Shown here piece by piece: positions 9,115 to 26,506 of a stretch of 33,506 nucleotides of DNA. The DNA is from Hydrogenophilales bacterium 28-61-23 (GTDB taxonomy: Bacteria; Pseudomonadota; Gammaproteobacteria; Burkholderiales; Thiobacillaceae). Both the position numbers and the translations under genes were made by a program. Position 1 is the stretch's first letter. Each line of letters opens with the position of its first letter. The stretch is from the NCBI GenBank assembly GCA_002281555.1, contig NCGJ01000019.1:1-33506 (forward strand), read 5' to 3'. The notes under the pieces are model-generated. The model did no database searches and was not told where the DNA came from. It worked only from the letters and a program-made list of their open reading frames with translations.

Positions 9115-11448
9115 TCAGAGCGGGCGCGCGGCGCGACCCGACATGGCCGACAGCAAGCCACCCGCTAACAGGATCAGACTCCAGAGTGGCAACGGCACAT
9201 CGCCGTCGTTGCCACTGACGGCCAGGCTGACGTTGAAACTTTGTTGCGCCGACGTCGCCATGTAAATCGCGTTGCCGCCCTGGCTGGCCAGCAAGGCGCA
9301 GACGCCCGCGCTCAGCAGCGTGACTTGATTGCCGCTGACGGAGCAGACCGCCATGCTCAGCGAGGAGACATCCACCGGCAAGCCCGAGCTGGCGTTGGCG
9401 GTCGCAGCGAACGGCGCCGCGCCCAAAACCCGATCGGCGGGCGCGGAAAAATCGGTGATGTTTTGCGCGAGCTTGCCGACCGTGAAGCTGCGCGTAACCG
9501 TGGGCGCGGCTTCGTAGCCGGCATTGCCAGCCTGATTGGCCGCCAGCGAGCAAGTGCCCGCCGCGATCAAGCTGGCGACATTGCCAGCCACGGTGCAGAT
9601 GGCCGGCGTGTTGCTGCTGAAACTGACCGCAAGACCGGAACTGGCGCTAGCGCTTAGGGTGACACCGGCGTTCACCGACTGATCGGCGAGCGGGTCGAAG
9701 GCGATGCTCTGCGCCTGCGCCAGCGACCAGTTCAACGTGAGCGCGCCGCTGGCGGCCGCTTTCCCATCCAGCGCGAAGGCGTAGGCGACGCCGGACTGCA
9801 CCGCCAGACTGACGCCGCTGGTGCTGCCGGCCGCGCCGTCGTTGTCATTGGACGCCGCTGTGGTCAGCGTGGAAACCGAGCCACCGGTATAGATGCCCAG
9901 CAAGGTATCGATGGCGCTGCCGTGGCTATTCACCGTCAAAGTGCCGGCGGCCGGCGCGACCCATTTCCACCAGACCGATTTGCCACCGCTGTTGCCGGCG
10001 TGGTTGGGCTCGCCGGTTTCTTTCGTGGCGTTGAGGTTCCATCCGGTGCTGAGCCCGCCGAGGCCGGTCAAGGTCGAGGCGCTGGCGTAGGTGTCATTGG
10101 ATGGCGCGCCCTGTGCGGCGAGCAGGTTGATGCGCGGTTTGGCGATGCCGTTGAGCGCGTCGGCAATCTGCGCACCGGTGGCGGTGAGTCGATTTTGAAT
10201 CTGGGTCGGCGTCTCGCTCGGGAAGGCCGCCTTCAGCACCGCCACCGCGCCAGCCACATGAGGCGCGGCGAAAGAGGTGCCGCCAATTTCAATCGCGTCC
10301 GCCACGTCGATGAACGCGCCCGGCGCGAGCAGGGTCAGGAATGAGGCGCTGTTGGAAATGCAGGCCACCTTGTCCTTGGAATAAGGCTCCGCGCCATAGG
10401 TATCGGTACAAGCGCTCCATCCGACGGTCGTGTATCGGTCGTCGTAGGTCATGCCCACGGAAACCGCGTCCGGCACACAAGCCGGACTGGAAAGGCCGTC
10501 CTTGTAGCCGTCGTTACCGCTGGCGACGATGCTCAGGATGCCGTTGCTACGGGCGGTGGCGATGGGCGCGCTCAGCACATCGGCGGAACACGCGCTGGTG
10601 TTGTGGCCCGAGCCCAGACTCAGATTGATGGCGACGATGTTGTAGGTGCTCTTGTTGGCAATCGCCCAGTCGATACCCTCGGCGATGTCGCTATCGTAAG
10701 CGCCGGTGCCTGTGAACACATCGATGGCCGCGATTTTTGCGCCCGGCGCGACGCCGAGCACGACGCCAGCGACATGGGTGCCATGATTGTCGGGGCTGGC
10801 GTTATCCAGTTTGTTGTCATTCCGCGCCGTGTCCAGCGCCGCCACGACCTTGCAGGTGGTGGCCGGCACGCCCGGCGCGGTGCAGGAACCGAAGGCGGAC
10901 AAGGTGTAATCGACCCCGGTATCAAGCACCGCCACGGTGGTGCCGGCCCCGGTTCGGGCCATGACCTGGGCGACCGTCGGCTGGCCGATGATCGGCAAAC
11001 TCTGGGCCAGGAAAGGCCGGTGCAGCCGATCCCGATAGACCGCCGCCACGTCCTTGCGCGCCAGAAACCGCGCCAGCCCGGCCGGGTCGTTGAAGCGGAT
11101 CAGGCTCATGGAAAGATGCCGGTAGTCCTTGCGCAGTTCGGCCTTGTCGGCGGCCAGACTGGCCTGAGCCGGCGCTTTCAGGCTGCGCAACCGTTCCACG
11201 CGCAGCGCGCGGGCCGGGCCGTCCGGCTCAGCGAGCCGGCGCGTCGCGAGATGAACGCTCAGTTCGGCTTTCAGCGCCGCATCGTCGAAACGAACGATCA
11301 GATCGTGAATCTCGCCGGATTCCACTTTTTGCCAGGTCTCGGCGTCGACCTTGCCGGCCACGCCAGCGGGCGGAGCGGCGACGGCGACGGAACCGGCCAG
11401 CAGAAAACCGAGCAGGCAAAAACGGCTGAAAGCGAAACAGACCGTCAT
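9115..11448 (-). CDS. Secreted subtilisin-like (S8) serine protease with C-terminal VPLPxW sorting signal
   Basis: The protein has 777 residues. Signal peptide ~1-25. An N-terminal prodomain (~30-150) contains a VDAETWQKVESGEIHDLIV segment shared with the neighbouring protease. The S8 domain has D176 (AVLDTGVDY), H222 (DNHGTHVAG), N312 (SGND) and S392 (GGTSFAAPHVAG), so the catalytic triad is complete. A pre-peptidase-like domain follows (~455-585, GGKSVWWKWVAPAAGTL). Two ~78-residue Ig-like repeats come next, each with a Cys pair (~588-745). The C-terminus is GDVPLPLWSLILLAGG followed by a basic tail. This is not a canonical PEP-CTERM; it matches three other proteins here. The ATG lies one base after the stop of the upstream protease gene, so the pair is coupled. 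It likely degrades extracellular protein at the cell surface. Confidence 0.9.
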   Translation of the reverse strand: MTVCFAFSRFCLLGFLLAGSVAVAAPPAGVAGKVDAETWQKVESGEIHDLIVRFDDAALKAELSVHLATRRLAEPDGPARALRVERLRSLKAPAQASLAADKAELRKDYRHLSMSLIRFNDPAGLARFLARKDVAAVYRDRLHRPFLAQSLPIIGQPTVAQVMARTGAGTTVAVLDTGVDYTLSAFGSCTAPGVPATTCKVVAALDTARNDNKLDNASPDNHGTHVAGVVLGVAPGAKIAAIDVFTGTGAYDSDIAEGIDWAIANKSTYNIVAINLSLGSGHNTSACSADVLSAPIATARSNGILSIVASGNDGYKDGLSSPACVPDAVSVGMTYDDRYTTVGWSACTDTYGAEPYSKDKVACISNSASFLTLLAPGAFIDVADAIEIGGTSFAAPHVAGAVAVLKAAFPSETPTQIQNRLTATGAQIADALNGIAKPRINLLAAQGAPSNDTYASASTLTGLGGLSTGWNLNATKETGEPNHAGNSGGKSVWWKWVAPAAGTLTVNSHGSAIDTLLGIYTGGSVSTLTTAASNDNDGAAGSTSGVSLAVQSGVAYAFALDGKAAASGALTLNWSLAQAQSIAFDPLADQSVNAGVTLSASASSGLAVSFSSNTPAICTVAGNVASLIAAGTCSLAANQAGNAGYEAAPTVTRSFTVGKLAQNITDFSAPADRVLGAAPFAATANASSGLPVDVSSLSMAVCSVSGNQVTLLSAGVCALLASQGGNAIYMATSAQQSFNVSLAVSGNDGDVPLPLWSLILLAGGLLSAMSGRAARPL

Positions 11449-11449
11449 T

Positions 11450-13618
11450 TCAGGTTCGCTCTCTTTTCGCCGGCCGCAACATGCCCCCGACCAAGCCGCC
11501 GCCCAACAAAATCAGCGCCCACAATGGCAGCGGCACATCGCCATCGCCGGAAGGATCGCCGCCAGCCGGCGCGACCGTAGTGCTGGCTGTGGTGCTGTTG
11601 TTGGCTGGATTGCCGTCCACCGTGGTCGTGCCGACGCTGGCCTGGCTTTCCGCCACACCCGCGCTGGCCAGGCTGATCTGGACATCGCGGCTGAGCTGCA
11701 GGCCGGCCGCCAAGCTGCCCAGATTGCAGGTCACCACGCCGGCGGCATGGCCGCAGCCCGCGCCGGCCGAGATAAATCCCGCGCCGGCCGGCAAGGTCTG
11801 GCTGACCGTTACATTGCCGGCCGTGGCCGGGCCGCTGTTGCTGACGATGAAGGTGTAGGTGAGCGTGGCGCCGGCCAGCACCGGGTCTGGCGAGTCGCTC
11901 AAGGCGATGGACAGGTTGGCCGTGCCGGCGGCATCGGCGCTGAAGGCGCGGTTCAGATACAGATTGCCGCTGGCGCCGGCTTTGCCATCGATCTCAATGC
12001 GATAAGTCGTGCCGGCGTCGGCATGGAAACTCAACGCGCTGACACCACCGGAAATGCCGTCATCATCGTTGGCGGCGAGGCTCGTCAAGGCATCCACCGA
12101 ATTGCCGGTGTAGACCGCCAGCAAGGTATCGAAATTGCTGCCGTGCGTATCCAGCGTGGCGGTGCCGGAAGCCGCCGGCGTCCATTGCCACCAGACCGAA
12201 GTGCCACCCGCCACGCCGGCATGGAGCGGCTCGCCGATCTCCTGGCTGGCGAAATCATTCCAGCCCAGCGTCGCGCCGGTATTGCCGGTCAGCAGGTTGG
12301 CGGCGGCAAAGTTGTCATTGCCGGGCGGATTCGTGGCCGGATAGCGCAGCGCGGCAAACATGTCCAGCCGAGGCGTGATGTAGCCCAATCCGTTGGCGCG
12401 ATTGTCCGGCACCGGTTTGCCGGTCGCGGTCATCCGGTTGGCCCTGGCAAGCGGGGTTTCCAGCGGATAGGCTGCGGCCAGCACCGCGCTGGCGCCGGCC
12501 ACCAGCGGCGCGGCAAAAGAGGTTGCGCCAGCCGGCGTCAGCAGGGACAGATAGTCCGACACGTTGGAGAAGCAGGCCACCGTATCCTTCAGCCCCGGCG
12601 TGCAGCCGGCCGTGTTGGCTTCATAGACCGCGCCCACGGAAACCACGCCCGGTGTGCAGGCCGGCCAGAGCACGCCGTTGGCATAACCGTTGTTTCCGCT
12701 CGCCGCCACGGTGAGGATGCCGGCGGCTTTGGCATTCGCCACGGCGGTCTCCAGGCCATAACTGTTGCTTCCGGCGCAGGGGCTGGCATAGGCCGCGCCG
12801 CCGGCCAGACTGATGTTGATGGCGACGATGTTGTAAGTCGCCTGGTTGGCGATGGCCCAGTCGATGCCGGCGATGATGGTGACGTTGTTGCAGCCATTGG
12901 TCGGATCGCACACATCCACGGCGGCGATCCTGGCGCCGGGCGCCGCGCTCAATGCCGTCCCGGCCACGGCGGTGCCATGGCCGTTGTCGTCGCGCGAGCC
13001 GTCGTCCGTGCCGGTATCGAGCGCGGCCACCACCTTGCAGGTCGCCGCCGGCACGCCGGGAGCGGTACAAGCGCCAAAGGTCGAGGTGGTGTAGTTCACC
13101 CCGGTATCCAGCACCGCCACGGTGCTGCCTACGCCGGTCTGACCGAGCAACTGGGCGGCCTGCGGCTGACCGATCAGATCCAGATTGGCCGCCACGGGCT
13201 CGGCTCGAATCAACTCGTAAACCGCTTTCACATCGGCTTGGCGCAACAGACGCAACAATGCATCCGCATCCCGAACCCGCATGACATTCATTGGCAGGTG
13301 ATTGAAGTTCTGCTTGATTTCAACGTCGCCCGCGCCGAGCTTGGCAAGCGCGCGGGTTTTCACGCTTCGCAAACGCTCGCTTCTTTTGACCAACAGCGCG
13401 CGATCCAGCTTCCCTACCTTGGTGTCCGAGTCATGAAACTCGACCAGCAATTCACGCATGCCGTTGTTGTTGACCTTGGCCCAGGTCTCCGCGCCGATCT
13501 TGCCGGCCGCGATGTCAGCCGGAAGCGGCGCGCCCGGCGCGGCAACAGCGCTGGAAATCCAGACGCAGGCCAGCAGCACGATCAGGCTGTTGAAATAGCG
13601 CGTGGAATCAGAGCTCAT
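11450..13618 (-). CDS. Secreted subtilisin-like (S8) serine protease with DUF11-type domain and VPLPxW sorting signal
   Basis: The protein has 722 residues and is a paralogue of the adjacent downstream protease. Signal peptide ~1-27, prodomain with IGAETWAKVNNNGMRELLV, then the S8 domain with D171 (AVLDTGVNY), H214 (DNGHGTAVAG), N309 (SGNN) and S367 (GATSFAAPLVAG). A pre-peptidase-like domain follows (~430-555, GGTSVWWQWTPAASG). Instead of the neighbour's Ig-like repeats there is one DUF11-type beta domain (~570-670, SNSGPATAGNVTVSQTLPAG). The C-terminus is GDGDVPLPLWALILLGGGLVGG plus a basic end. A possible sigma-54 promoter lies ~43-56 bases upstream of the ATG. The different C-terminal modules imply domain exchange after duplication. 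Confidence 0.9.
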   Translation of the reverse strand: MSSDSTRYFNSLIVLLACVWISSAVAAPGAPLPADIAAGKIGAETWAKVNNNGMRELLVEFHDSDTKVGKLDRALLVKRSERLRSVKTRALAKLGAGDVEIKQNFNHLPMNVMRVRDADALLRLLRQADVKAVYELIRAEPVAANLDLIGQPQAAQLLGQTGVGSTVAVLDTGVNYTTSTFGACTAPGVPAATCKVVAALDTGTDDGSRDDNGHGTAVAGTALSAAPGARIAAVDVCDPTNGCNNVTIIAGIDWAIANQATYNIVAINISLAGGAAYASPCAGSNSYGLETAVANAKAAGILTVAASGNNGYANGVLWPACTPGVVSVGAVYEANTAGCTPGLKDTVACFSNVSDYLSLLTPAGATSFAAPLVAGASAVLAAAYPLETPLARANRMTATGKPVPDNRANGLGYITPRLDMFAALRYPATNPPGNDNFAAANLLTGNTGATLGWNDFASQEIGEPLHAGVAGGTSVWWQWTPAASGTATLDTHGSNFDTLLAVYTGNSVDALTSLAANDDDGISGGVSALSFHADAGTTYRIEIDGKAGASGNLYLNRAFSADAAGTANLSIALSDSPDPVLAGATLTYTFIVSNSGPATAGNVTVSQTLPAGAGFISAGAGCGHAAGVVTCNLGSLAAGLQLSRDVQISLASAGVAESQASVGTTTVDGNPANNSTTASTTVAPAGGDPSGDGDVPLPLWALILLGGGLVGGMLRPAKRERT

Positions 13619-14694: not shown

Positions 14695-15522
14695 TCAGGC
14701 CTGGTTACGCTTGCGGGCCAATACGCCAGTCAAACCAAAACCAAGCAGCATCAACGCGTACTGATCCATTTCAGGGATCGGCGCGGCAGCCAGATCTACA
14801 TAGCCATCGGCGGTAAATTTCAGATCGCTGCCAGCGTTATAGGTATGACTCTGCACGCTGTTTACGCTGTTGATAAATGAAGCATCGGACGGAAAATTCA
14901 GCCGCAGCGTAAAAATTCCGTCACCGCCCACAATCGTGTCCGGCTCAAATATCGCGGTATCGTAGGAATCGACGCGAATTTCAAGAACCGTGGCGCCGAA
15001 AGAAAGGGCGCCAAACGACGATACGGTTCCCGCACCGCCGACGATGGTTCCACTCAGGAAGTTATAACCATCGCTAAAGCCGGTGTCGCCAGCGAAATTG
15101 CGATCTACCCCCATATCAAGCCACAACTTGACTTGTCCACCGGTCACGCTAACGCCTGTACTCGTAACAACCTCTGAAAAGTTGGCCGTAACAGTCACTT
15201 CGTAGGAATTATTGAGTTTGGTCGACGTCAGCGGGGTTGGCGTCAGCTCATGGTTGGTAACGAAAGACTGATAGTAGCCGTCATAACAACTCGCCCCGGA
15301 AACGCAGGAAGCGACGCTTTCCAGCAACACAACGCCGGTACCGAAGTCGTACTTGTCGAACGGACCGACCAGTTCGGTTTTGGCCTCTTCAGCCAGATTC
15401 CCGATAATCCCCGGGGCCTTGGTGTAATCGGCCGTACCAACCCACGCAGACGCCTGTGCCGGCATCGCCGCAAACAGGCTGGCTACCATGCCGCCTAGCG
15501 CGGCCAGTTGTTGTTTCTTCAT
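14695..15522 (-). CDS. PEP-CTERM sorting-domain protein (possibly PepA-like)
   Basis: The protein has 275 residues: a signal peptide (~1-25), a beta-rich body with one Cys pair (SCVSGASCYDGYY, ~92-99) and the C-terminal signal IPEMDQYALMLLGFGLTGVLARKRNQA. The middle (NNSYEVTVTANFSEVV, QVKLWLDMGVDRNF, FLSGTIVGG) recalls flocculation-associated PEP-CTERM proteins of the PepA type, but I cannot confirm this. It would be exported, cut at the PEP motif by an exosortase and attached at the surface. The AGGGGA ribosome binding site is strong. It is the last of four tandem PEP-CTERM genes; a hairpin upstream (15637-15650) may separate its transcript from the previous gene. Confidence 0.85.
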   Translation of the reverse strand: MKKQQLAALGGMVASLFAAMPAQASAWVGTADYTKAPGIIGNLAEEAKTELVGPFDKYDFGTGVVLLESVASCVSGASCYDGYYQSFVTNHELTPTPLTSTKLNNSYEVTVTANFSEVVTSTGVSVTGGQVKLWLDMGVDRNFAGDTGFSDGYNFLSGTIVGGAGTVSSFGALSFGATVLEIRVDSYDTAIFEPDTIVGGDGIFTLRLNFPSDASFINSVNSVQSHTYNAGSDLKFTADGYVDLAAAPIPEMDQYALMLLGFGLTGVLARKRNQA

Positions 15523-15668: not shown

Positions 15669-16652
15669 TCAAGCTAGCTTGCGACGACGGGCCAGCAGAC
15701 CGACCAGACCCATGCCGGCCAGCATCAGGGCGTAAGTGTCGGCTTCGGGCACAGGCGCGGCCAAAACGATCAACTGCGATTTGGTGTTCGGGGTGCCATC
15801 CTGAATTTGCTCGGCGACCAGGTAAATTGTGCCCTTCTCGTCAACGGTAACGCCTTCGATGCCATTGTTGGGCAGGACGTTGGACAGGTCGAAGGAACTG
15901 AGCACGGTTCCGGCGCGGTTCACTTCGATCAGTTTGCGCGAATCCAGGCTTAGCACCAGCAGGTTATCGGCAGCAGCCGTGCCCACCAACGCATCCACTG
16001 AAGAGAGCGTTTGCACATCCGACAAACTCGCCACACCCATCAATGCCGGATTGAACAACTGCGCCATGGTCGACGTGCCGCCTGCGCCAGAGGCAAACGT
16101 GAGTGAACCGGCAAGAATGTCCTCGGCTGCCACCTGTTTGACCGTCACGAAACTGCCTGCGCCGCGTGCGTCGTAGCTGATGCCCTCCAGACCGTTGTTG
16201 CCGACGTTTGCATTGCTGATTGACACAAAACTGTTGGCCAGCGTAGCGCTACCGCCGTTGCTGTAGCTGAAACGATAAGCGTCATACAGGCGCTCTTCCG
16301 AAACGACCAGCACGCCGCCACCCAGATAGGTCAAGCCTTCGGTATCGTGTTTGCTGCTGCCGGTATTGGCCCAATCGAATGTCATGGAACCCAAGGTCGT
16401 ACCGGTCTTGGAAATCTCGACCACACCGGTGCCTTCGTCGCCGACATAGAACAGCGAGTTACGGTCGCGGGCGTAGGTCACCGCCGAGGCTTCCAGACCG
16501 GAAACCAAGCCGGCGTTCAAGTCGAGCGCGTAGGTGTTCTGGACGGCGTAGTTGCCCAGATTGATCGACGTAACTGCCGCCTGCGCGTTGCTGCCAGCCA
16601 TGGTGGCTACAGCGGCAAACAGGATGGAACCAAGTAAAGAGGTTTTATGCAT
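15669..16652 (-). CDS. PEP-CTERM protein with SdiA-regulated/esterase-like beta-propeller domain
   Basis: The protein has ~327 residues: signal peptide (~1-25), then a beta-propeller of the SdiA-regulated (YjiK-like) or phytase-like kind. The repeated blades are visible as SLFYVGDEGTGVVEISKTG, DTEGLTYLGGGVLVVSEER, LEGISYD, and GIEGVTVDEKGTIYLVAEQ. It ends VPEADTYALMLAGMGLVGLLARRRKLA, a canonical PEP-CTERM. The start at 16652 (ATG, GGAAG six bases upstream) is preferred over a TTG four codons earlier. The ligand or enzymatic activity cannot be told; propellers of this type bind or hydrolyse small molecules or are structural. The next gene upstream is 69 bases away, separated by a hairpin. Confidence 0.85.
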   Translation of the reverse strand: MHKTSLLGSILFAAVATMAGSNAQAAVTSINLGNYAVQNTYALDLNAGLVSGLEASAVTYARDRNSLFYVGDEGTGVVEISKTGTTLGSMTFDWANTGSSKHDTEGLTYLGGGVLVVSEERLYDAYRFSYSNGGSATLANSFVSISNANVGNNGLEGISYDARGAGSFVTVKQVAAEDILAGSLTFASGAGGTSTMAQLFNPALMGVASLSDVQTLSSVDALVGTAAADNLLVLSLDSRKLIEVNRAGTVLSSFDLSNVLPNNGIEGVTVDEKGTIYLVAEQIQDGTPNTKSQLIVLAAPVPEADTYALMLAGMGLVGLLARRRKLA

Positions 16653-16677
16653 TATTTCTTCCAATGAAAATTGAATA

Positions 16678-16720: not shown

Positions 16721-17395
16721 TCAGTTTTTACGACGACGAGCCAGGAAACCGACCAGACCCAAACCGGCCATCAAAAGCGCGTAGGTATCGGCTTCAGGGA
16801 CGGGGGCTGCATAAGACGTCGTGCCCGGATTGCCGATGTCGAAATTGGCGCCCGTGTTGGATTGGTATGAACCTTCAGCATCACCGACAGCGGACAACGC
16901 CCACAGGCTGGCGTTATTGGCGCCGATCGCAGCAAGGCTTCCGGGATTACCGCTGACGCCTTGGGTGCGGTAGGTATCAACGGTGCCAGTACCCTGATCG
17001 TTGTAAGTCAGACGATCGATCAGCGTGTTGGTAGCGTCATAGAGGTTGATTTCATCGCTGCGACCGAGGTTATTGGTGTTGCCACCGATAACCTTGACCG
17101 TTGTGGCCAGGTTCCACTGGCCGCGAAAAAAAGCGTCTGTGGTCTCGGTCAGGATCACCGATTCACCTGCTTGCACAATGCCGAAAGCCGACAGGCTTTG
17201 AGAACCCGGAGTCCGCGAGTTGTCATCGAAGCTCCAGCCGGTGAAGTCGACAGCGCTGTTGCCCATGTTGGTGAATTCGATGAACTCGCCAGAAGTCGCG
17301 GCAGGGTTGTACATCCATTCGGTAATGCGGATGTCGGCCTGCGCCGCATTGACCAGACCGGCGGACAGCAGCGTGGCGAGAAGCAGTTTGTTCAT
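16721..17395 (-). CDS. PEP-CTERM protein with lamin-tail (LTD) domain
   Basis: The protein has 224 residues: a signal peptide (MNKLLLATLLSAGLVNAAQAD), then a lamin-tail-like Ig fold (IRITEWMYNPAATSGEFIEFTNMG, VDFTGWSFDD, ESVILTETTDAF, DEINLYDATNTLIDRLTY), ending VPEADTYALLMAGLGLVGFLARRRKN. LTDs occur on extracellular nucleases and surface proteins and probably bind DNA or polymers. Here the domain is alone. The ribosome binding site AAGGAA lies before the ATG. Forty bases separate it from the upstream PEP-CTERM gene, so the two are likely one transcript. Its 3' end is nearly identical in DNA to that of the upstream gene. Confidence 0.87.
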   Translation of the reverse strand: MNKLLLATLLSAGLVNAAQADIRITEWMYNPAATSGEFIEFTNMGNSAVDFTGWSFDDNSRTPGSQSLSAFGIVQAGESVILTETTDAFFRGQWNLATTVKVIGGNTNNLGRSDEINLYDATNTLIDRLTYNDQGTGTVDTYRTQGVSGNPGSLAAIGANNASLWALSAVGDAEGSYQSNTGANFDIGNPGTTSYAAPVPEADTYALLMAGLGLVGFLARRRKN

Positions 17396-17434: not shown

Positions 17435-18160
17435 TTAGCCAACCCTGCGACGACGCGCCAGGAAACCGACCAGACCCAAACCAGCCAGCAACAGCGCGTA
17501 GGTGTCGGCCTCGGGGATCGGTGCGGCGACGGAGGCGCTGACGGTGAAGTTGTCGACGCGATCGGTGCCGGCGGTGGCAACGGTGCCGGCATTGGCGGAT
17601 ACCGTGGAGGTATCAGTCAGGCGGAAAAAGACATTGGCTTGGTTATCCAGCGCGGTGATGGCGCTGAGGTCGAACGCAAAATTAAAAGCAGAGTTGTAGG
17701 TCGCACTGGTCCAGGCTGTATTCGGAGTCCCATTGACCAACACGCTGTAGCTACCGAAATCCGTGTAGCCAGTGCCGTCCGTGCTATAGGCCAACTTGAA
17801 GTCCCTGGGACCGGTGCTGCTGCTGGTCTGATCCCAGGACAGCATCACATCGGCAAAACCGGTGGTGCTGGTCTGAAACTGGTAGTAGTCGCCAACAGTC
17901 CAGGTGTTGGAACTGAAGGAATTGGCCGAGCCATTTCCAACAGGAGTCGTCCAGTCGGTTGCAGCGTTGGCATGCACACCGCTGGCGTTGCCAGAGCCAA
18001 TGGACGGTGCAATTGCGTTGGGATACACAGCGAAGTTCGTGGCATCGGCGGGTGTCAAAGGACTTTCGAAACCCCATTGCACAACGGTGTCGGCACTCGC
18101 GCTGGCGGACAGAGCCATGGCCAACATTGCGGCAGAAAGAATGCTCCGTTGTTTGTTCAT
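17435..18160 (-). CDS. PEP-CTERM sorting-domain protein, unknown function
   Basis: This 241-residue exported protein has a signal peptide (~1-23, ending SASAD). The body is Ser/Thr/Asn-rich with the pattern of a beta-sandwich (VVQWGFESPLT, DFKLAYSTDGTGYTDFGSY, NVFFRLTDTSTV) often seen in PEP-CTERM proteins with a jelly-roll-like fold. The end is IPEADTYALLLAGLGLVGFLARRRRVG. No catalytic motif was seen. It is first of the four tandem PEP-CTERM genes. A 13-base perfect inverted repeat (18215-18227) and one copy of the 18-bp palindrome lie upstream. AGGGA precedes the ATG. Confidence 0.85.
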   Translation of the reverse strand: MNKQRSILSAAMLAMALSASASADTVVQWGFESPLTPADATNFAVYPNAIAPSIGSGNASGVHANAATDWTTPVGNGSANSFSSNTWTVGDYYQFQTSTTGFADVMLSWDQTSSSTGPRDFKLAYSTDGTGYTDFGSYSVLVNGTPNTAWTSATYNSAFNFAFDLSAITALDNQANVFFRLTDTSTVSANAGTVATAGTDRVDNFTVSASVAAPIPEADTYALLLAGLGLVGFLARRRRVG

Positions 18161-18448: not shown

Positions 18449-21400
18449 TCACCCCAGCTTCCGCCGCATCGCGCCGACCAGACCCGCGCCCAGCATGAAC
18501 AAGGCCCATGCCGGCAGCGGCACATCGCCAGAATCGGCGTTGGTCGCGCCGACGACATTGAAGCTTTGCGCCACCGTCGCGGCCGGGGCGTAGCTGGCAT
18601 CGCCTGTTTGCTCGGCGGCGATGGTGCAGCTACCCGCGGCCAGCAGCGTCACGGTGGAACCCGAGACGGTACAGACCGAGGCGGACAGCGAGGCGTATGT
18701 CACGCTCAAGCCGGAACTGGCACTGGCGGTCAGGCTGAAGACGCCGCTGTCGACCGCGCGGTCAGCCAGAGGCGCGAAGCTGATGATCTGGCCGAGTTGC
18801 ACGCTGAAGCTCCGCACCACTTGCGACGCGGCAGAGTAGCTCGCGTTGCCGGCCTGGTTGGCGGCGATGCTGCAAGTGCCGGTGGTCAGCAGGGTGACGC
18901 TGGCGCCGGAAACGCTACAGACACCCGAGGTCAGCGATGAGAACACCACCGGATTGCCCGAAGCGCCGCCGGTAGCCGTGACCGCGAAGGGCGAGTCATC
19001 CAGGGCGCGGTTTTGCAGACTGGCGAAGCCGATGCTCTGCGCGATCAGGCTCGAGTTGTAATGCACGCTGGACTGCGCCAACAGCGGGGTCGGCTGGACG
19101 TTGCCTTCGTTGTCGGTCGCCACGCTGTAGAACTCGTAGTGGCCGGCGCCGTTGGGGAAGTTGAACGCCATGTCCCAGGCCGCCGGGGTGGTGTCGGTAC
19201 CGATTGATGTCCAGGCACCCCAGTTGAGGCCGTCAGCCGCGTAGCGGTAGAAGAACCGCACCGAGGCCACGCTGGCGGTCGAGAGGGGGGCGGTGTAATC
19301 CACTTCCAGCGCCGGGGCGTTGCTGCCGTATTCCTTGGCGTCGAAGGCATAGCCGAGCGCGGTGGCGGCGTTCTCGGTCACCGGCTTGGCGACGAAGCTC
19401 ACGGCGGACTTGCCAACGACGTAGCTGCCCACGTCCCAGCTATACCAAGTGTTGAGGGTGGACACGGTCTGGCTGGCCAGGGCGATAGCGTCGAAGGCGG
19501 GCTGGGTGTTCCAGGTGATGGCGGTCTCGGCCCAGGCGGTGTCGCCGCTGCCATGCACCGCCACCGGCAGGCCGACGCCGCTCGCCTTCCACTGGAACAG
19601 CTTGAGGCGGGCGCCGGTTGCGCTGGCCCCGGCGGGTAACGAACCGGTCAGGTCGAAACGCAGCCAGTCGCGTTCGTTGCCATAGCCGCTGGCCGCGCTC
19701 TGGATATACAGATTGGTGGTGTTGTAGTTGACGCCGGGGTAGCCGGAAGCCACTTGCGCATCGGCCGCCGGCGCGATGCTCAGGGTGCCATTGCCGCCGG
19801 TGGCGGCATCGTTGGCGGCGGCGGTCAGCGTGATCGGGCCGGTGGCGACCGGATCCGAGCTGACCGCATTGACCGCGGAGAACGGCAGATAACCGCCGTT
19901 GTTGCCGCCGGTCGGCACCACGCTGGCCTCGCGCAGGCGGAAGCGACGATCCGGGCTGCTGCCGGTGCGCTGGGTCTGAACGCCGACCAGTTCGAGCAGG
20001 TCGCCGTTGACGCCGGGCAGCTTGCCGACGGAGTAATAGCCGCCTTCCTTGTAGACATTGATCTGCACGCCGTTGGCATCGGTCACCTTCTGGTCACCGG
20101 TACGCACGGCGCGGAACTTGACCAGGCGGTTTTCGTGCGCCTCGTCGAAGAAGGCGGCGGTATCGGGCTGGAACTCGGGCTGGGCCAGGCTGGTGTTGTT
20201 ACCCAGGATGGAAAACTCCTTGCCCGGCGCGTAGACGGATTCCTGATCGACCAGTTGCGGGTTGCCGGCGAAGAAGCCGCCCTCGCCCCACACCTCGATG
20301 ATGTCGCCGACTTTCAGCATGCCGTCGGGGAAACCGAGATGCGCGCGGTAAAGCATGGTCTCGGCGAATTCATGATCGGCATTGATGCTGCCGTCGGCGT
20401 TGACCAGACTGGCCAGACCGTAGGACGCGCGGCGGGCGACGGTCTCCGGCAGGGCTTCGATCAGGCGGATGAAGACGCCTTCGAAGTAGGGTTCGTTCTC
20501 GGCATCGGAGACCATGGTCACCACCGCCTTGAAGCCGCCGGCCAGTTCGGTGTTGAGCACATAGCGCGGGCCTTCCACGGTCATCGGGTTGGCCGCGGTG
20601 AACTGGGACGTGTATTGCACGACCGAGTTGCGGATGCTCTGGGTATAGGCGGTGTTGGGCTTGGTACTGAACACGAAGCTGCCGCCGGATTCGTTGATCC
20701 AGTCGTCATGCAGGAACATGTATTCGCTGATGGCGACCTGCCAGGTGGTACTGGTGTCGGTCTTCGAGATCGCCACCGGGGCGCCGGGGCCGGAACCGTC
20801 GGCGTCGTAGGTGATGGCGGTGACATCGCCGTCGTTGGCGCTGACCTGCCAGCCTTTGGAGATGGAACTGCCGACGTAATGGCTTTCCAGGTAGTTCCAG
20901 ATATCGGCGCTGGTCAGCGTAACGACGCGTATCTGGTCATCGGTCCAGGGATAGGTTTCGTAAATATCCAGATAGGTGATCGGGCCGGCTTTCACATCGC
21001 GACGCACGCCGCCGCCGGATTGCAGGGCCAGTTGCGCGGACACGCCGAGCTGGCCCAGTTTCCACACGGTGGCGTCGGCGATCCACTCGCCGGCGGCGTT
21101 GTCGCCGCTCCAGGGGAACTCGGACAAGGTGAACCATTTGTCCTTGTCCAGCTTCAGATCGACGGCGGAATAACCGACGACATGCTCGAGCGGACAGGCC
21201 TGGTTGGCGTTCGCGCGGCCGGTCACCGAAGTCGGCAGCACGCAAGCCTTGGCCGGGTCGACCTGGGCGTCGTATTCGGCGATCAGCGTGTCGATCAAAG
21301 TCTGCACGCCGGCGTTGGGGGTGATTTCAGCCGCCTTGATCGGATGTTTCTGTGCGCTGAGGTACTCGCCCTTGGGCGTCAGTTGAACTTCACCCACGTA

Positions 21401-24094
21401 CTGGGCGTAGGAAGCCGCTTCGACCACCGCCGTGTTGTAGTTCAAATTGGACGGCTGCCAGACGGTCTTGCCCCAGGTATGCCAGTGGCCGGAAACGACC
21501 AGATCGGGCGGGGAAACGTCGCCGTCGCCAAGCAGAACCTCGTCGCCGGAGTTGTAGCGGCGATGGCCGACGTGCGACAGCAGGACGACGACGTCGGCAT
21601 GCTCGGTGTTGCGCAGATAGTCGACCCAGTCCTTCAGCTTGACGTGGTCGGCGTTGGCACTGGTCCAGCGCGTCTCCTTGACCGAGATCAGGGTTTCGGT
21701 GGAAGCGGACAGGATGGCCGAATCGTCGGTCAGGTAACCCAGCACTGCCACCTTGGTCGGGGTGCCGGCGGAGGAAATGGTGTCGACGATGACGTAGGGA
21801 CGGAATTTGTTGGCGGCGGGCCAGGCGGACGGCGTCGGCACCGTGGCGCCGAAATTCAGCATGTTCACCGCGATGAAGGGCAGCCCGGAAGCCTGCATGT
21901 TGGCGATCATCTGGGCATCGCGCACGTCGTGGTTGCCGATGACGATGGCGTCGATGCCGCGACCGCCGAGGCCTTTGAGCTGGCTGTCGATGTTGTCCAG
22001 ATAGTCGACCATGCCGCCGTTGACGCGCAGGTCGCCGAGCGGACCGCCTTCGGAAATATCGCCGGCATCCAGAATCAACGAATTCATGTTGGCCGACTTC
22101 AGCGCCAGAATCTTGGCCGCCATGCGCGCCGCGCCGCCTGCTTCCTCGAAGGCCGGCGATTCGCCGCTCGCGTCGGGGAAATCCAGATCGTGCGTGGTCA
22201 GACGGGAGTGGATGTCGTTGACATGGATGATGTTGATCTTGTCATCGGGCCAGACGCCGCCCGCGTATTCGATGCGCAGGCGCGGAGCCAGGCTGGCGTT
22301 GAAATCCTTGCTGTCGATGGCGTTGGAAACCCAGGTCGCGGCGCCTTCGGTAGCGGCCTTGACCATCAGGTTGATGCGGTTGCCGCTGGCCATGCGCGCC
22401 AGGACATGCGGCGTAACGTCGAACTCGACCCACTTGTACTCGCCGTTGGCGGGCAGATCGCCGCTTGCCACCGGGACGCCGTCGAAGGCTGGCTGGGTGG
22501 CCCAGGTGATTCCGGTCTCGGTCCAGGCGTCGTCGCTGCTGCCATGCACGGCCACCGGCAGATCGGTGGTGGCGGCCTGATAAACATACATGCGCAGCTT
22601 GGCGGAAGTGATGCTGGCGCCCGGCGGCAACTTGCCGGACAGGTCGAACGCCGACCAGATGCGCTGGTTGCCGTAGGTTCCGCCATTGGCGCTGGCAACG
22701 CGCATGCTGGCATCGGTGGCGTAATTGGTGGCGGCCAGGGCTTCAGCAACCTGAGCATCGGCGATGGGCGAGAAATCCTGGAAGTGGGCGGTGGTGTCCA
22801 GGCTGGCGGAACAACTGGCGGCCGCACCGCCATTGAGGCCGTTACAACCCCAGTTCCACGGGCCGGTGCCGATCACAGCGGTCGCGCCGCCGGTCGCGCA
22901 CAGATTGGCGGTCGGCGCGGTGGCGCGGGCCTGGCCGTTGGACGAACCGCACACGCCGACGATGGGCGCGTTGGTGAAATTGGCGGTGATGGTCTGGGCG
23001 GCGGTGACGTTGCCGACGGTCAACGGGTTGCTGCCGGTGGTGGCGAAGCCGCCGGTGCCGGTCCAGTTGCTGAAGGCGTAACCGCTGTTGGCAGTGGCGC
23101 TAACCGCTGTGGCGCTGCCGGCGAAATCGACGGTTTGCGACGTGGCGCCGGTCAGCGTGCCGTTGCCGTCGGTGGCGAAGTTCAGGCTGTAGCTCTGGAT
23201 GCTCGCCGAGCAACTTGCATTGGTGCCGCCGCCGCTGCCGTCGCACGACCAGTTCCAGGGGTGGCCGCTGCCGGTGATGGCGGAGGCGGTGCCGGCGATA
23301 CAGAGGTTGGTCGGGGCTGAAGCGGCGAGGGTCTGGGCGTTGTCGGTGCCGCAGGCGCCGTTCACGGCCGGTACCGAGCAGGTAACCGCGGTCGTCGCGG
23401 TGTTGCGGGGGGCGGGGGCTACCGCAGTGAAGTCGGTGTTGTTGTTGTCGGTGTCGGTACAGCCGTTGCTGGCGCGCAGGGCTGCGGTGGTGTTGCTGGG
23501 TGCGGGCGCTGGGCCAATACCCTCGTAGTTGTTGGCCGTGGCACCGAAGCCGATGTAGTCCTTGACTGCGGCGTTGGTGGAACAGGCGCTGCCACACGGG
23601 AGTGCGGTCGAGTTGGTTACCAGCGCAACCTTACCGGCCGTACCCGACATCGCAATGGTGCCCACCTTGTCGGCGGCTGGCAGACTGGTCGTGCCGCCCG
23701 TGCCCGCCGCTTCTTGTACCAAGTAGTACTGGCCCGGCTGCAAGGTGACATTGGTCAGGGCGGTGACCTGCCAGGAAGTCCCGGTGGCCGAAGCGTATTG
23801 CACCGACCATCCGTTCAGACTAATCGCGCTTGCGCCACGGTTATGCAGCTCGATGAAGTCGTTCTTGTAGGTGGCGCCAGTATTGCCGCCACCACCGTAG
23901 ACCTGGCTGATGACCACATCGGTGGAAGCAGCCATCGACGGCGCGGCGCAAGCCAGGGACAGGCCGACTGCAGTGACAACTCGCGCAATCTGGCTCCATA
24001 CACCTTGGCGGATACCGCCCGCGTTCAGGTCGGTCTGACGGTCGTCCCGACCATGGCTGGCGCAGGGAAACAGGTGGGCGGGCAGTTGAAGCAT
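18449..24094 (-). CDS. Giant multidomain surface protein: LTD + 5'-nucleotidase/metallophosphoesterase, VPLPxW sorting signal
   Basis: The protein has 1881 residues. A strong TAAGGA site before the ATG supports the start, which gives a long signal peptide (to ~A56). Domains: LTD (~57-235); two Cys-rich repeats with PWNWxC (~248-298, ~382-431) flanking an InlB-B-like repeat (~303-374); DNRLRE-type beta domain (~440-610); calcineurin-like 5'-nucleotidase domain (~619-910) with NDIHS (D627, H629), DAGD (~676-679), GNHD (720-723), LLSHVGH (H841) and GHWH (869-872); 5'-nucleotidase C-terminal domain (~965-1190); an OB-like region (~1200-1390); a second DNRLRE domain (~1430-1605); two Cys-pair Ig-like repeats (~1695-1853); and GDVPLPAWALFMLGAGLVGAMRRK. 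All metal ligands are present, so it should dephosphorylate nucleotides outside the cell. True ExeM-type nucleases carry a different (EEP) core, so I call it a nucleotidase, not a nuclease. Confidence 0.9.
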   Translation of the reverse strand: MLQLPAHLFPCASHGRDDRQTDLNAGGIRQGVWSQIARVVTAVGLSLACAAPSMAASTDVVISQVYGGGGNTGATYKNDFIELHNRGASAISLNGWSVQYASATGTSWQVTALTNVTLQPGQYYLVQEAAGTGGTTSLPAADKVGTIAMSGTAGKVALVTNSTALPCGSACSTNAAVKDYIGFGATANNYEGIGPAPAPSNTTAALRASNGCTDTDNNNTDFTAVAPAPRNTATTAVTCSVPAVNGACGTDNAQTLAASAPTNLCIAGTASAITGSGHPWNWSCDGSGGGTNASCSASIQSYSLNFATDGNGTLTGATSQTVDFAGSATAVSATANSGYAFSNWTGTGGFATTGSNPLTVGNVTAAQTITANFTNAPIVGVCGSSNGQARATAPTANLCATGGATAVIGTGPWNWGCNGLNGGAAASCSASLDTTAHFQDFSPIADAQVAEALAATNYATDASMRVASANGGTYGNQRIWSAFDLSGKLPPGASITSAKLRMYVYQAATTDLPVAVHGSSDDAWTETGITWATQPAFDGVPVASGDLPANGEYKWVEFDVTPHVLARMASGNRINLMVKAATEGAATWVSNAIDSKDFNASLAPRLRIEYAGGVWPDDKINIIHVNDIHSRLTTHDLDFPDASGESPAFEEAGGAARMAAKILALKSANMNSLILDAGDISEGGPLGDLRVNGGMVDYLDNIDSQLKGLGGRGIDAIVIGNHDVRDAQMIANMQASGLPFIAVNMLNFGATVPTPSAWPAANKFRPYVIVDTISSAGTPTKVAVLGYLTDDSAILSASTETLISVKETRWTSANADHVKLKDWVDYLRNTEHADVVVLLSHVGHRRYNSGDEVLLGDGDVSPPDLVVSGHWHTWGKTVWQPSNLNYNTAVVEAASYAQYVGEVQLTPKGEYLSAQKHPIKAAEITPNAGVQTLIDTLIAEYDAQVDPAKACVLPTSVTGRANANQACPLEHVVGYSAVDLKLDKDKWFTLSEFPWSGDNAAGEWIADATVWKLGQLGVSAQLALQSGGGVRRDVKAGPITYLDIYETYPWTDDQIRVVTLTSADIWNYLESHYVGSSISKGWQVSANDGDVTAITYDADGSGPGAPVAISKTDTSTTWQVAISEYMFLHDDWINESGGSFVFSTKPNTAYTQSIRNSVVQYTSQFTAANPMTVEGPRYVLNTELAGGFKAVVTMVSDAENEPYFEGVFIRLIEALPETVARRASYGLASLVNADGSINADHEFAETMLYRAHLGFPDGMLKVGDIIEVWGEGGFFAGNPQLVDQESVYAPGKEFSILGNNTSLAQPEFQPDTAAFFDEAHENRLVKFRAVRTGDQKVTDANGVQINVYKEGGYYSVGKLPGVNGDLLELVGVQTQRTGSSPDRRFRLREASVVPTGGNNGGYLPFSAVNAVSSDPVATGPITLTAAANDAATGGNGTLSIAPAADAQVASGYPGVNYNTTNLYIQSAASGYGNERDWLRFDLTGSLPAGASATGARLKLFQWKASGVGLPVAVHGSGDTAWAETAITWNTQPAFDAIALASQTVSTLNTWYSWDVGSYVVGKSAVSFVAKPVTENAATALGYAFDAKEYGSNAPALEVDYTAPLSTASVASVRFFYRYAADGLNWGAWTSIGTDTTPAAWDMAFNFPNGAGHYEFYSVATDNEGNVQPTPLLAQSSVHYNSSLIAQSIGFASLQNRALDDSPFAVTATGGASGNPVVFSSLTSGVCSVSGASVTLLTTGTCSIAANQAGNASYSAASQVVRSFSVQLGQIISFAPLADRAVDSGVFSLTASASSGLSVTYASLSASVCTVSGSTVTLLAAGSCTIAAEQTGDASYAPAATVAQSFNVVGATNADSGDVPLPAWALFMLGAGLVGAMRRKLG

Positions 24095-24206: not shown

Positions 24207-24224
24207 ATGAGCCGAACGGCTCAT
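24207..24224. repeat. 18-bp palindrome copy 3 (terminator-like after the endonuclease gene)
   Basis: ATGAGCCGAACGGCTCAT is preceded by AAAAAA on the +, so on the - strand the hairpin is followed by TTTTTT. It lies 39 bases after the endonuclease stop, which suits a terminator, and 112 bases before the start of the nucleotidase gene. Confidence 0.88.
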
Positions 24225-24263
24225 ATCGATACCGAGGCTGAAGTCGGAAAGGGAGTGCCAGCT

Positions 24264-25208
24264 CTACGACTTACGCCTTGCCAGCATGCGCCAGCCCAGC
24301 AGACTGCCCAACAGCGGCACCACCCAGAACGGCAGCGGCACATCGCCGTCGTCCGGCGCGGGGTCGGCGGGTGGCGCGATGCCGCAGGCCGGGCCGAAGA
24401 TTTTCAGCGCGTATTCAGGATGATCGACGAAGGGGTTGCGATTGCCCTGCCAGGAATAGATCACCGCGTTACGCGCCTGCTCCGCGCTGGACACCGGGTC
24501 GCCCTGGTGCCAGGCGACCAGGTCGCACAGGTCGCCGAAATAAGGTTCGCCCGAGTTGGTCAGCCGATCCACCAGTTCCAGGTCGGGTGTGTTCCCATCC
24601 ACTCCGCCACCGGCGTAACGCACCGCCATATAGAACATGGCGCGGGCGATGTCGCCCTTGACCAGGTCCGGCGCTTCCCAGGTTTCCAGATTGTTGTCCT
24701 CCAGGCAGGCGGGGCATTCCGGATTGGGCGTGCCGCCGTAGGCGAAATCGTCGTTGGCCCGGTCGGCGTTGATCGATTTGTCGGCGGCGTAGAGGTGGTG
24801 GGCGTCGGTGTAAGCATGGTTGCCGCTGGACGGGAAGCCATGCGAATTGGCCCAGACGTGCTCCCGGTTCCATGCGTTCGGGGTGTTTCCACCGGTGTCC
24901 TGATCCGTCTTGGGGATCGAGCGCCGGGAGTAGATATCGATGACGTTGTTCGGGTTGGCCGGGTCTTGATCCGCCTCTTTCAGCACGTCCCAGACGCAGG
25001 TATAGGTCTGCGCGATATGGTTATCGACGATGTCATGCAGCGCGGATTTGAGTGCCGCGCCGGTCAGGCCGGCGGCTGGCGTGTAGTAGGTGGCGCTGTT
25101 GAAAACGGGTAGCGTCGGTTTCGCGCAAGCCGCGCCGACGGTCGAGATCGAAAGCCAGATTCCACCCAGGCAAGACAGGGTGGCGAACAGAATTTTCAGG
25201 CTGTGCAT
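24264..25208 (-). CDS. Secreted endonuclease I (EndA-like) with VPLPxW sorting signal
   Basis: The protein has 314 residues: a signal peptide (~1-28) and an endonuclease I domain with the His-Me finger motif NREHVWANSHGFP (114-126; H117 probably catalytic) and the downstream TDAHHLYAADKSIN-DRAND block. Both are diagnostic of the family, which cuts DNA (and RNA) non-specifically outside the cytoplasm. Several Cys (C71, and the PECPACLED pair) may form disulfides. Unlike free periplasmic or secreted EndA, it ends DDGDVPLPFWVVPLLGSLLGWRMLARRKS, the same tail class as the nucleotidase and the two proteases here. That implies surface attachment by a dedicated exosortase. The exosortase operon lies immediately upstream on the same strand, with a palindrome between them. 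Confidence 0.92.
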   Translation of the reverse strand: MHSLKILFATLSCLGGIWLSISTVGAACAKPTLPVFNSATYYTPAAGLTGAALKSALHDIVDNHIAQTYTCVWDVLKEADQDPANPNNVIDIYSRRSIPKTDQDTGGNTPNAWNREHVWANSHGFPSSGNHAYTDAHHLYAADKSINADRANDDFAYGGTPNPECPACLEDNNLETWEAPDLVKGDIARAMFYMAVRYAGGGVDGNTPDLELVDRLTNSGEPYFGDLCDLVAWHQGDPVSSAEQARNAVIYSWQGNRNPFVDHPEYALKIFGPACGIAPPADPAPDDGDVPLPFWVVPLLGSLLGWRMLARRKS

Positions 25209-25337: not shown

Positions 25338-25356
25338 TTTTCTACTCGAAAAGCGC

Positions 25357-25974
25357 TCAACTTGTCTTGGTACGTCGGAACGGGAACAAACCGTGCAGCC
25401 AGGCCGCCAGAAATGCGGCCGTTATACAGATGGCCGAGCGCGCACCGCCTTCCAGAAAGCGAACCCAGTCGATCGGTTTGGACACCAGATAACCGGCCGG
25501 ATCGTAGGTCTGCGCCAGCGCATCGTTGATCGAACTGAGCATGACCAACGGAATATCCATGGCTTCCAGCACGACCAGGATGGGTAGCGACCACAGCAGC
25601 CGGGCGATGCGTCCCCGCCAGGTCAAGCGCGGCCAGGCCAGCGCCGCGGCGGCGAGCATGATGGGATGGGTGACCGTGTAATAGACCGGCGCATGCACAT
25701 AGCCGTCCAGACCGGGCGGAACCATATTCGGACCGACGATCAGTACGCGCTCTATGGTGTAGGACGCCTTGATGACAAATTCCGTCGTCGTGCGGCTGAT
25801 CTCAAGGTCGGCGAAATGGAAACCGTACAGCGCAGCGCTCAGGACTTCCCGATACAGCGGCAAAAACATGCGCGCGTAGTCTTCGCCCCAAAGCCAGCCC
25901 AACCAGAGCAAGACCGGCAAGCCCAGCACCAGACGCAGGGCGATAGCCAGGATTTCATTGCGCGCGAGGTTCAT
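25357..25974 (-). CDS. Exosortase-associated integral membrane protein
   Basis: The protein has 205 residues from the chosen ATG. Hydrophobic segments at ~8-30, ~97-115, ~124-146 and ~177-196 suggest four membrane spans, with a soluble loop (~45-95: FADLEISRTTTEFVIKASYTIERVLIVG) on one side. It resembles in size and layout the membrane proteins encoded next to exosortase H-type genes; I cannot confirm the family without a search. The ORF extends 14 codons upstream, but the ATG at 25974 overlaps the exosortase end by 20 bases, so the two are coupled. A role as partner, chaperone or specificity subunit for the exosortase is inferred from position only. Confidence 0.75.
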   Translation of the reverse strand: MNLARNEILAIALRLVLGLPVLLWLGWLWGEDYARMFLPLYREVLSAALYGFHFADLEISRTTTEFVIKASYTIERVLIVGPNMVPPGLDGYVHAPVYYTVTHPIMLAAAALAWPRLTWRGRIARLLWSLPILVVLEAMDIPLVMLSSINDALAQTYDPAGYLVSKPIDWVRFLEGGARSAICITAAFLAAWLHGLFPFRRTKTS

Positions 25975-26506
25975 GCCGGGCGAGAAAAACCAGGAAGAAG
26001 GCCAGGCAGCCGGCAATCATGGCCAGCGGCAACACGGTGCCATGCAACATGCCGAAGATCGCTTTGTCATGCTTGAACGCCTGCCAGAGCAGGATTATCC
26101 GGGCCTGATTGAGCACGAAAACCACGCCCACGCCCAAGGCGATGCCGAGCAACCGGGCGCGCCAGGCAAACGGATAAGCGACAAATGCGGCGACCAGCAA
26201 AAACAAGGTCTCCAGCCCCTCGCAGCCATTGAGGATGTTGAGCCGGCCCTTGGGCGCCACCAGACGATGTTCTTTTGCCAGCACGCCCGCTTCGGGCCAG
26301 ATCCGGTTAATGGCCCAGGCCGAGGGCTGTACCGTCAGATCGTGGATAACGACGCGCTCCAGGGCGGTGCCCCGGCTCATCTCCCAGCCGTATTGCAGCA
26401 CCAGGAAAGTGGCCAGAAACAGCAGCAACAGCCGCAATGGCCGGCGCCGGCGGACTTCGGTCCTGGCATCGGAGGCCAGGAATTCTTCGTAACTCTGATC
26501 AGGCAT
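25955..26506 (-). CDS. Exosortase/archaeosortase family transpeptidase (XrtM/XrtH-like)
   Basis: The protein has 183 residues, compact for the superfamily (EpsH/XrtA is much longer and usually carries extra domains). The predicted active site is complete: Cys in LNILNGCEGLETLF (C95), Arg in VLNQARIILL (R136) and His in MLHGTVLP (H155), each at the edge of a membrane helix. Exosortases cut a C-terminal signal of exported proteins at the outer face of the inner membrane and transfer them to a surface acceptor. The short form with NGCEG and the paired membrane protein gene recalls XrtM/XrtH types rather than the PEP-CTERM-specific XrtA. Its likely substrates are the four VPLPxW proteins nearby. 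The start could be 26560 (18 residues longer); neither start has a clear ribosome binding site. Confidence 0.87.
   Translation of the reverse strand: MPDQSYEEFLASDARTEVRRRRPLRLLLLFLATFLVLQYGWEMSRGTALERVVIHDLTVQPSAWAINRIWPEAGVLAKEHRLVAPKGRLNILNGCEGLETLFLLVAAFVAYPFAWRARLLGIALGVGVVFVLNQARIILLWQAFKHDKAIFGMLHGTVLPLAMIAGCLAFFLVFLARHEPRAQ

Follow-up and report, generated by a model that had tools for sequence, protein, structure and literature searches.

The genome of Hydrogenophilales bacterium 28-61-23 (3.5 Mb, 98 % complete) encodes four predicted secreted enzymes that share a C-terminal tail in which the motif GDVPLP-x-W precedes a hydrophobic helix and a basic end. Their genes lie together with those of a small exosortase and a companion membrane protein in one stretch of 33,506 nucleotides (positions 1-33506 of contig NCGJ01000019.1, assembly GCA_002281555.1; contig C12 in our numbering), here termed the window, which also encodes PEP-CTERM-like proteins. 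This arrangement raises the question which enzyme, if any, sorts the GDVPLPxW-tailed proteins. Judged from the sequence comparisons described below, the locus is likely to represent a dedicated exosortase system, i.e., an unnamed subtype related to XrtM that would sort DVPLPxW-tailed enzymes.

Four tailed hydrolases, an exosortase and its companion

The four tails form the true C-termini of products encoded on the minus strand: (i) DGDVPLPFWVV in an endonuclease I (24264-25208; Pfam Endonuclease_1, 141 bits; signal peptide recognised by eye), (ii) SGDVPLPAWAL in an LTD/5'-nucleotidase-type/CBM96 protein of 1881 amino acids (aa) (18449-24094; Pfam LTD, Metallophos, 5_nucleotid_C and CBM96), (iii) DGDVPLPLWAL in an S8 subtilase with DUF11 (11450-13618; Pfam Peptidase_S8, 72 bits; DUF11, 64 bits) and (iv) DGDVPLPLWSL in a further S8 subtilase (9115-11448; Pfam Peptidase_S8, 109.5 bits). 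A hidden Markov model (HMM) of the tail, which includes all four as members, scores them with 45.9 (24267-24356), 57.4 (18455-18538), 56.8 (11462-11551) and 51.4 bits (9121-9213; all minus strand), respectively. Inspection of the N-termini by eye suggests that all four enzymes are secreted. The window contains 177 open reading frames (ORFs) of 60 aa or longer; D[VI]P[LIM]PxW near the end is confined to these four, and the DNA pattern GAYGTNCCNYTNCCNNNNTGG (for DVP[LF]PxW) has four matches in the entire genome, all of them in the window, compared to none for the backwards-read pattern. The first-pass annotation of the window had described four such enzymes, with motif, helix and basic end and devoid of a PEP motif, and this description holds in both respects.

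The exosortase (25955-26506, minus strand, 183 aa) matches the general signature TIGR04178 with 37.7 bits (cut-off 23). Its residues Cys95, Arg136 and His155 (C113, R154 and H173 of the long ORF), which we take to be the exosortase catalytic triad, are invariant in both alignments prepared (16 of 16 and 26 of 26 exosortases, window included). The AlphaFold2 model of the protein is confident and helical (predicted local distance difference test, pLDDT, 87). Sequence search of the PDB yielded no matches, and Pfam and NCBIfam scans matched exosortase-type models only and no rhomboid model. The companion gene (25357-25974, minus strand, 205 aa) begins within the final part of the exosortase gene. 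From position 27350 downward, the minus strand thus encodes EpsA, the exosortase, the companion, the endonuclease I and the 1881-aa nucleotidase-type protein, followed by four PEP-CTERM-like proteins and, further down, the two S8 subtilases. A compact exosortase with this triad and a companion beside the endonuclease gene is therefore present, as had been proposed.

None of the curated exosortase subtypes is reached by the window protein, scoring 65.3 bits with XrtM (TIGR04300, cut-off 125), 50.2 with XrtH (TIGR04177, cut-off 86) and 45.1 with XrtX (cut-off 170). The first-pass annotation had likened the tail to the XrtH and XrtD signals while setting it apart from both; the distinction stands, since neither tail cut-off is reached, but the nearest curated subtype of the enzyme is XrtM. 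One may ask whether the NCBI cut-offs are merely too tight, in which case there would be no separate subtype and the enzyme would be a plain XrtM (or XrtH) acting on IPTL-CTERM targets. XrtM is indeed the top named subtype for the window protein, all 26 aligned exosortases match the XrtM model below 1e-3, and at locus L070 both partners come close to their cut-offs (exosortase 115.8 vs 125 bits for XrtM; tail DVPTLPEWG 19.7 vs 20.5 bits for IPTL_CTERM). The phylogenetic tree, too, forms a continuum. However, the window protein falls far short of both subtype cut-offs, and the best XrtM match among the 26 (E 2.5e-28) is weaker than that of L070 (2.2e-33, corresponding to 115.8 bits) and hence under the cut-off as well. 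Furthermore, none of the ten tails scored (of 26) passes an NCBIfam cut-off, and the membrane protein accompanying XrtH (NF041730) does not match the window companion. Assignment to plain XrtM or XrtH is accordingly rather unlikely. XrtH, XrtD and XrtA/B were rejected as identities of enzyme or tail on the basis of the subtype, TIGR02602 and tail scores.

The companion matches neither Pfam nor NCBIfam models, and its 23 aligned relatives yield scattered weak matches (best E 0.0068). Its AlphaFold2 model (pLDDT 91.7) comprises one long helix, a beta domain and further helices; a sequence search of the PDB gave a single match (E 0.61). NF041730 was not matched by any of 24 companions and was present beside a true XrtH in L079 (176 bits). 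A relationship of the companion to NF041730 was also tried by profile alignment and rejected (hhalign probability 0.7, E 0.082), the two-row profile being weak evidence either way. The companion adjoins the exosortase in all 25 named loci found with the exosortase alignment. Among 15 such loci from the order sample described below, it was found in 12, the others being L292, L293 and L294 (the last ending at the exosortase).

Distribution of tail and exosortase across genomes

Co-occurrence was determined in two overlapping samples, comprising 149 related genomes and 399 genomes of the order (shared: G000, G105, G117, G118 and others). Model A1 was built from 16 exosortases, A2 from 26 tails, and A4 served as exosortase model for the order sample. 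In the 149 genomes, the subtype was called above 200 bits with A1 (next best 88.5, a fragment, then at most 81) and the tail from 30 bits upward with A2 (next best 25.3); in the 399 genomes, thresholds were above 100 bits with A4 and again at least 30 bits for the tail. Tail-model matches of about 20-27 bits in G144 and G742 (PEP-CTERM) and in G639 and G675 (long-form) were left out of the counts, as were the second matches of G435 (internal) and G625 (variant). The p-values (Fisher) ignore shared ancestry and are descriptive.

In the 149-genome sample the subtype is present in 15 genomes (the same 15 being found with the window protein alone as query) and the tail in 16. Both occur in 12 genomes (G000, G041, G050, G051, G060, G065, G070, G075, G081, G083, G087, G105), the exosortase alone in 3, the tail alone in 4 and neither in 130 (p = 4.8e-12). 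The order sample contains 21 genomes with the subtype and 10 with the tail, 9 of which have both (p = 4.4e-12). The exact DNA pattern was detected in 20 of the 149 genomes. In nine it was not part of a C-terminal tail, and these were dropped; of the remaining 11, 8 possess the exosortase (p = 1.9e-7). By contrast, the EpsH-type exosortases (TIGR02602; XrtA/XrtB) are over cut-off in 88 of the 149 genomes, including 13 of the 16 tail genomes, and track the tail poorly (13 both, 75 EpsH-type only, 3 tail only, 58 neither; p = 0.047). The proposal of a dedicated exosortase for VPLPxW proteins, distinct from the PEP-CTERM enzyme, had predicted this difference and gains support from it, the sorting itself being deduced.

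When named genomes were searched with the exosortase alignment, 25 loci were obtained, many on contigs already in the 149-genome sample, from records including Thiobacillus, Gallionellaceae, Hydrogenophilaceae, Rhodocyclaceae, Azonexus and Denitromonas. A tailed protein is encoded within the fetched flank in 22 of them and missing in L137 as well as in L138 and L140, whose contigs measure 5.8 and 7 kb, respectively; a pattern match in L138 proved to be a PEP-CTERM tail and was not counted. The 22 tailed loci divide into 16 with the strict form [DE][VI]P[LIM]PxW, four with looser tails (GDAPLPLW, GDGPIPLW, GNGPLPLW, AEVPAGPLW) and two with long ones (DVPTLPEW, DVPLLPPW). Cultured carriers include Thiobacillus denitrificans RG (L129) and Denitromonas iodatirespirans IR-12 (L141), the latter having three tailed genes grouped about its exosortase. 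In one group of relatives, the exosortase is accompanied by a single protein of about 500 aa in which an Ig-like domain (He_PIG) is joined by cyclase/TED-like matches that are mostly weak, in contrast to the four tailed hydrolases of the window.

Several observations weigh against a dedicated system. Tail-bearing genomes in which the subtype was not detected, named beforehand as evidence to the contrary, do occur, i.e., G010, G012, G018 and G021 (4 of 16) in the 149-genome sample and G523 (1 of 10) in the order sample. G012 is 58 % and G018 71 % complete, G021 is 93 % complete in 340 contigs, and G010 (98 % complete, 6 % contamination, 310 contigs) has its tailed gene starting 241 bases from a contig end; G523 is 99 % complete. 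A search of the first four with TIGR04178 gave over-cut-off matches at one place in G010 and three in G021, one partial in G018 and none in G012, and all general-signature matches in these genomes are EpsH-type or sub-threshold. Conversely, some exosortase genomes lack the short tail. In the 149-genome sample these are G002, for which no tail was found, as well as G117 and G118, where tails of long or variant form adjoin the exosortase; the order sample has 12 such genomes among its 21. Of these 12, G117, G118, G639, G675 and G691 have a long or variant tail and six have none in the fetched stretch; the twelfth is G442, whose exosortase copy bears an internal stop. Absences in the order sample are soft, at most 8 exosortase and 20 tail first-look candidates having been scored per genome; A1, A2 and A4 include sequences from the sampled genomes, and the patterns for looser tails were tuned after the data had been seen. 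At the protein level, the window exosortase stays under the cut-off of PF09721 (Exosortase_EpsH; 23.8 vs 25.7 bits), a model built on the larger EpsH type, so that the protein is still filed in the wider exosortase/archaeosortase family, and PDB fold searches with the exosortase and companion models yielded nothing below E 0.3.

Also on the unfavourable side are data pointing to the EpsH-type (XrtA/XrtB) exosortases of PEP-CTERM proteins as processing enzymes of VPLPxW tails, with the small exosortase doing something else. TIGR02602 matches at three places elsewhere in the source genome; each of the 15 subtype genomes in the 149-genome sample has a match, too (14 over cut-off; partial and under cut-off in G050), and G010 and G021 combine tails and EpsH-type exosortases in the absence of a detected subtype exosortase. 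Moreover, Pfam PF07589 (PEP-CTERM, cut-off 20.7 bits) matches 11 of the 26 tails at E values up to 10, and 3 of 10 trimmed tails exceed its cut-off by 0.1-0.3 bits (20.8, 20.8 and 21.0). One of these three is from the window, namely the nucleotidase tail (20.8), the other three window tails giving no match when trimmed. The full-length proteins that show this match, however, remain under the cut-off (12.7 bits for the nucleotidase-type protein, 14.7 and 13.8 for two relatives), the tails contain no PEP, TIGR02602 matches neither the window exosortase nor anything else in the window, 75 of the 88 genomes with an over-cut-off EpsH-type exosortase lack the tail, and the tailed genes adjoin the small exosortase. 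Processing by EpsH-type enzymes thus appears improbable. The subtype exosortase is often encoded about 1-50 kb from an EpsH-type match on the same contig (G002, G050, G060, G065, G070, G083, G105).

The PEP-CTERM-like proteins of the window are encoded at 7307-8059, 14695-15522, 15669-16664, 16721-17395 and 17435-18160. Five canonical PEP-CTERM tails had been reported initially; five tails exist, but they read VPEAD, IPEMD or IPEAD, and only the 14695-15522 product passes a curated NCBIfam model, as flocculation-associated PEP-CTERM protein PepA (NF033554, 122 bits, cut-off 80). For the other four, no curated model passed in the NCBIfam scan.

Tail variants, exosortase phylogeny and internal signals

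The two prolines and the tryptophan are invariant in the 26 aligned tails, which were selected for the motif. Hydrophobic helix and basic end, known here from the genes alone, would suffice to anchor a protein in the inner membrane, and the tails could thus be plain C-terminal anchors that are never cut. Since an anchor needs neither a conserved motif preceding the helix nor co-occurrence with an exosortase, this seems very unlikely, the selection of tails by motif notwithstanding, and the dedicated exosortase system is preferred in the following.

With regard to known tail classes, the four window tails do not match IPTL_CTERM (cut-off 20.5 bits; best of the ten scored tails 16.1), and with TIGR03370 (VPLPA-CTERM, cut-off 25.35) one of them reaches 7.7 bits and three give no match (best of ten 9.7). 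The initial view of a tail resembling but differing from the IPTLxxWG and VPLPA signals is thus correct as to the scores, although the tail represents one end of a series extending to the IPTL-type. Five of 18 loci fetched around XrtM-model matches have recognisable tails, i.e., AEIPTLSEWG (L115), DIPFLPGWA and EIPALPQWG (L116), EIPFLPIWG and DIPFLPPWA (L117), SVPLPPWS (L114) and DIPTLSEWA (L123); no tail was recognised beside the other 13, which include L110 and L111. A further member of the series is DVPLLPPWA (L073).

In a tree of 50 exosortase rows, the short-tail loci fall into a 25-row branch (support 92/92, below the 95/80 mark) made up of two groups (100/99 and 97/93), from which two XrtH rows are separated by a 99/93 branch. 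By rows, 20 short and no long tails are inside this branch, and 2 short and 8 long ones outside; counted by locus, these numbers are 18 and 0 vs 2 and 7 (p = 4.1e-5). Repeats among the rows are L073 and L150 (one contig) as well as L133 and L134 (each two exosortases per tail); the fragment L075 was left out, and the tree is limited by long branches and six open forks. Tail form is matched to enzyme branch, and DVPLPxW is probably DVPxLPxW minus one residue, hence a shortened IPTL-type signal. Apart from the tree, truncated or interrupted exosortase copies were observed in L075 (G126), L238 (G442), L288 (G561) and L111 (3598-3897), which suggests loss in some lineages.

Matches to the tail model are not confined to C-termini. 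The single contig of G573, with two exosortases, has them at seven scattered chromosomal places, two being C-terminal tails and five lying inside RHS/YD-repeat proteins (L280, L281, L282). Here, the internal signal is followed in frame by a second stretch resembling an export signal and by further repeats. Internal signals occur also twice in G736 (L284) and once each in G050 (L199), G435 (L268; reading frame running past the end of the stretch) and G639 (L261), the last being of the long form DVPTLPEWG like the C-terminal tail of the same genome. All five genomes (G050, G435, G573, G639, G736) have the subtype exosortase. NCBI names a class of proteins cut mid-chain for XrtH. The internal signals may also reflect separate internal translation starts. 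Tail-bearing proteins of about 440-520 aa were furthermore noted near large RHS-repeat-like genes in L196 and L198 (G012) and L076 (G010).

The strings VPLPxW, VPLPLW, GDVPLP and VPLPAW were not found in the literature searched, from which most subscription papers are missing, so that absence from print is not shown; IPTL-CTERM is mentioned in PMC8671808, and the term exosortase-associated in PMC8205485.

Proposed function and comparison with known systems

According to the general exosortase model, the tail retains a protein in the inner membrane after export, up to the cut that the exosortase makes near the motif. Applied to the window, the signal peptides would export the enzymes, and the C-terminal helix would anchor them in the inner membrane with DVPLPxW on the periplasmic side. 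There, the motif may be recognised by the small exosortase together with its companion, upon which Cys95, aided by Arg136 and His155, would attack near the motif and the helix would be removed. The new C-terminus could then be passed to an acceptor in the membrane or at the surface, or the protein could be released; nuclease, nucleotidase and proteases would thus reach the cell surface or matrix. The recognised DVPLPxW would have arisen by shortening from D-[VI]-P-x-L-P-x-W, the IPTL-type signal used by sister exosortases. PMC12188702 describes exosortase substrates as having a signal sequence and, at the C-terminus, a motif, a helix and a basic end.

A possible extension, compatible with the dedicated exosortase system and adding a route to it, is that the system prepares exoenzymes to be secreted by the type II route and attached to the surface, much as rhombosortase does with GlyGly-CTERM proteins, but with an exosortase. 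The cargo, i.e., subtilases and nucleases, is of the kinds found among GlyGly-CTERM proteins (PMC3237569), for which rhombosortase, type II secretion and surface attachment are linked, VesB requiring both rhombosortase and type II secretion (PMC6219818). In G002 (L062 = L137), the exosortase and companion genes point away from an adjacent operon that includes GspG and a secretin; a similar operon adjoins the exosortase in G430 (L294), and in G184 (L111) an exosortase fragment and companion have a GspC-like gene beside them. GspG and secretin of L062 were matched to the PDB, the remaining operon genes and L294 being assigned by homology to L062 alone. A homology scan of 84 partly overlapping stretches, however, located the operon at these two places only (L062/L137 and L294), besides a partial ATPase match in L122, and no type II secretion operon was seen in the window. 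The connection, drawn from three neighbourhoods, is a lead and, as a general route, doubtful. More speculative still is a scenario in which a branch of small exosortases, together with an undescribed companion, gave up the exopolysaccharide/PEP-CTERM role and came to attach exoenzymes to the surface, perhaps in connection with type II secretion. The signal would have been shortened step by step from the IPTL-type to DVPLPxW along with the enzyme, and, in view of the internal signals, cleavage might also take place within proteins.

Directly upstream of the exosortase gene, the XrtB/PEP-CTERM-associated LuxR-type regulator EpsA is encoded (26586-27350, minus strand; TIGR03020, 206.8 bits, cut-off 170), which is a possible regulator of the locus. 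Of 20 relative loci scanned, L062 alone has an EpsA homologue (67 % identity), at a distance of about 2 kb from its exosortase. An inverted repeat of about 18 bases (ATGAGCC-GTTC-GGCTCAT) is present in the window at 2915 and 18309 (plus strand) and at 24207 and 25320 (minus strand), and also in the loci of G041 (L060:8714), G018 (L078) and G050 (L073). It may represent a terminator or an operator; two of the sites are terminator-like, but terminator-like matches between 9000 and 27600 number 20 vs 18.3 in shuffled sequences.

If the proposed system exists, exosortase sorting would gain a subtype and a signal that are both unnamed and a companion family not yet described, together with recognisable cargo (nuclease, nucleotidase-type protein, subtilases). 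The graded signal across several enzyme-tail pairs would provide a good set for studying substrate choice of exosortases, and cargo enzymes that can be assayed would render acceptor and final location testable.

Among known systems, PEP-CTERM/XrtA and XrtB share with the window the tripartite tail, the exosortase family and the vicinity of EpsA and exopolysaccharide genes, but the window tails are devoid of PEP and the window exosortase of a TIGR02602 match. VPLPA-CTERM is paired with XrtD and has the letters VPLP in common; in contrast, the aligned window-type tails have an invariant tryptophan two places after VPLP and score far under the TIGR03370 cut-off. In case of GlyGly-CTERM/rhombosortase, the resemblance extends to secreted subtilases and nucleases, a C-terminal tripartite signal and a dedicated membrane enzyme (PMC3237569), rhombosortase being, however, a rhomboid serine protease and the window enzyme a member of the exosortase family. 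XrtH/IPTL-CTERM (TIGR04177, TIGR04174) likewise combines a compact exosortase with a companion and a tail having proline and tryptophan before the helix, and sister loci of the window branch bear IPTL-like tails; it differs by score (50 of 86 bits), by its position across the 99/93 branch, by a companion that is unrelated as far as found, and by a tail that is one residue longer. XrtM (TIGR04300) is a small exosortase, too, and of the named subtypes the one that scores best with the window protein. A further parallel is a membrane protein with a GGGR stretch (recognised by eye), encoded downstream at L110 and L111, the two XrtM loci over cut-off; no target tail was recognised beside either of them. 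Compared to XrtM, the window protein attains 65 of 125 bits and its presumed targets are distinguished by the short DVPLPxW tail.

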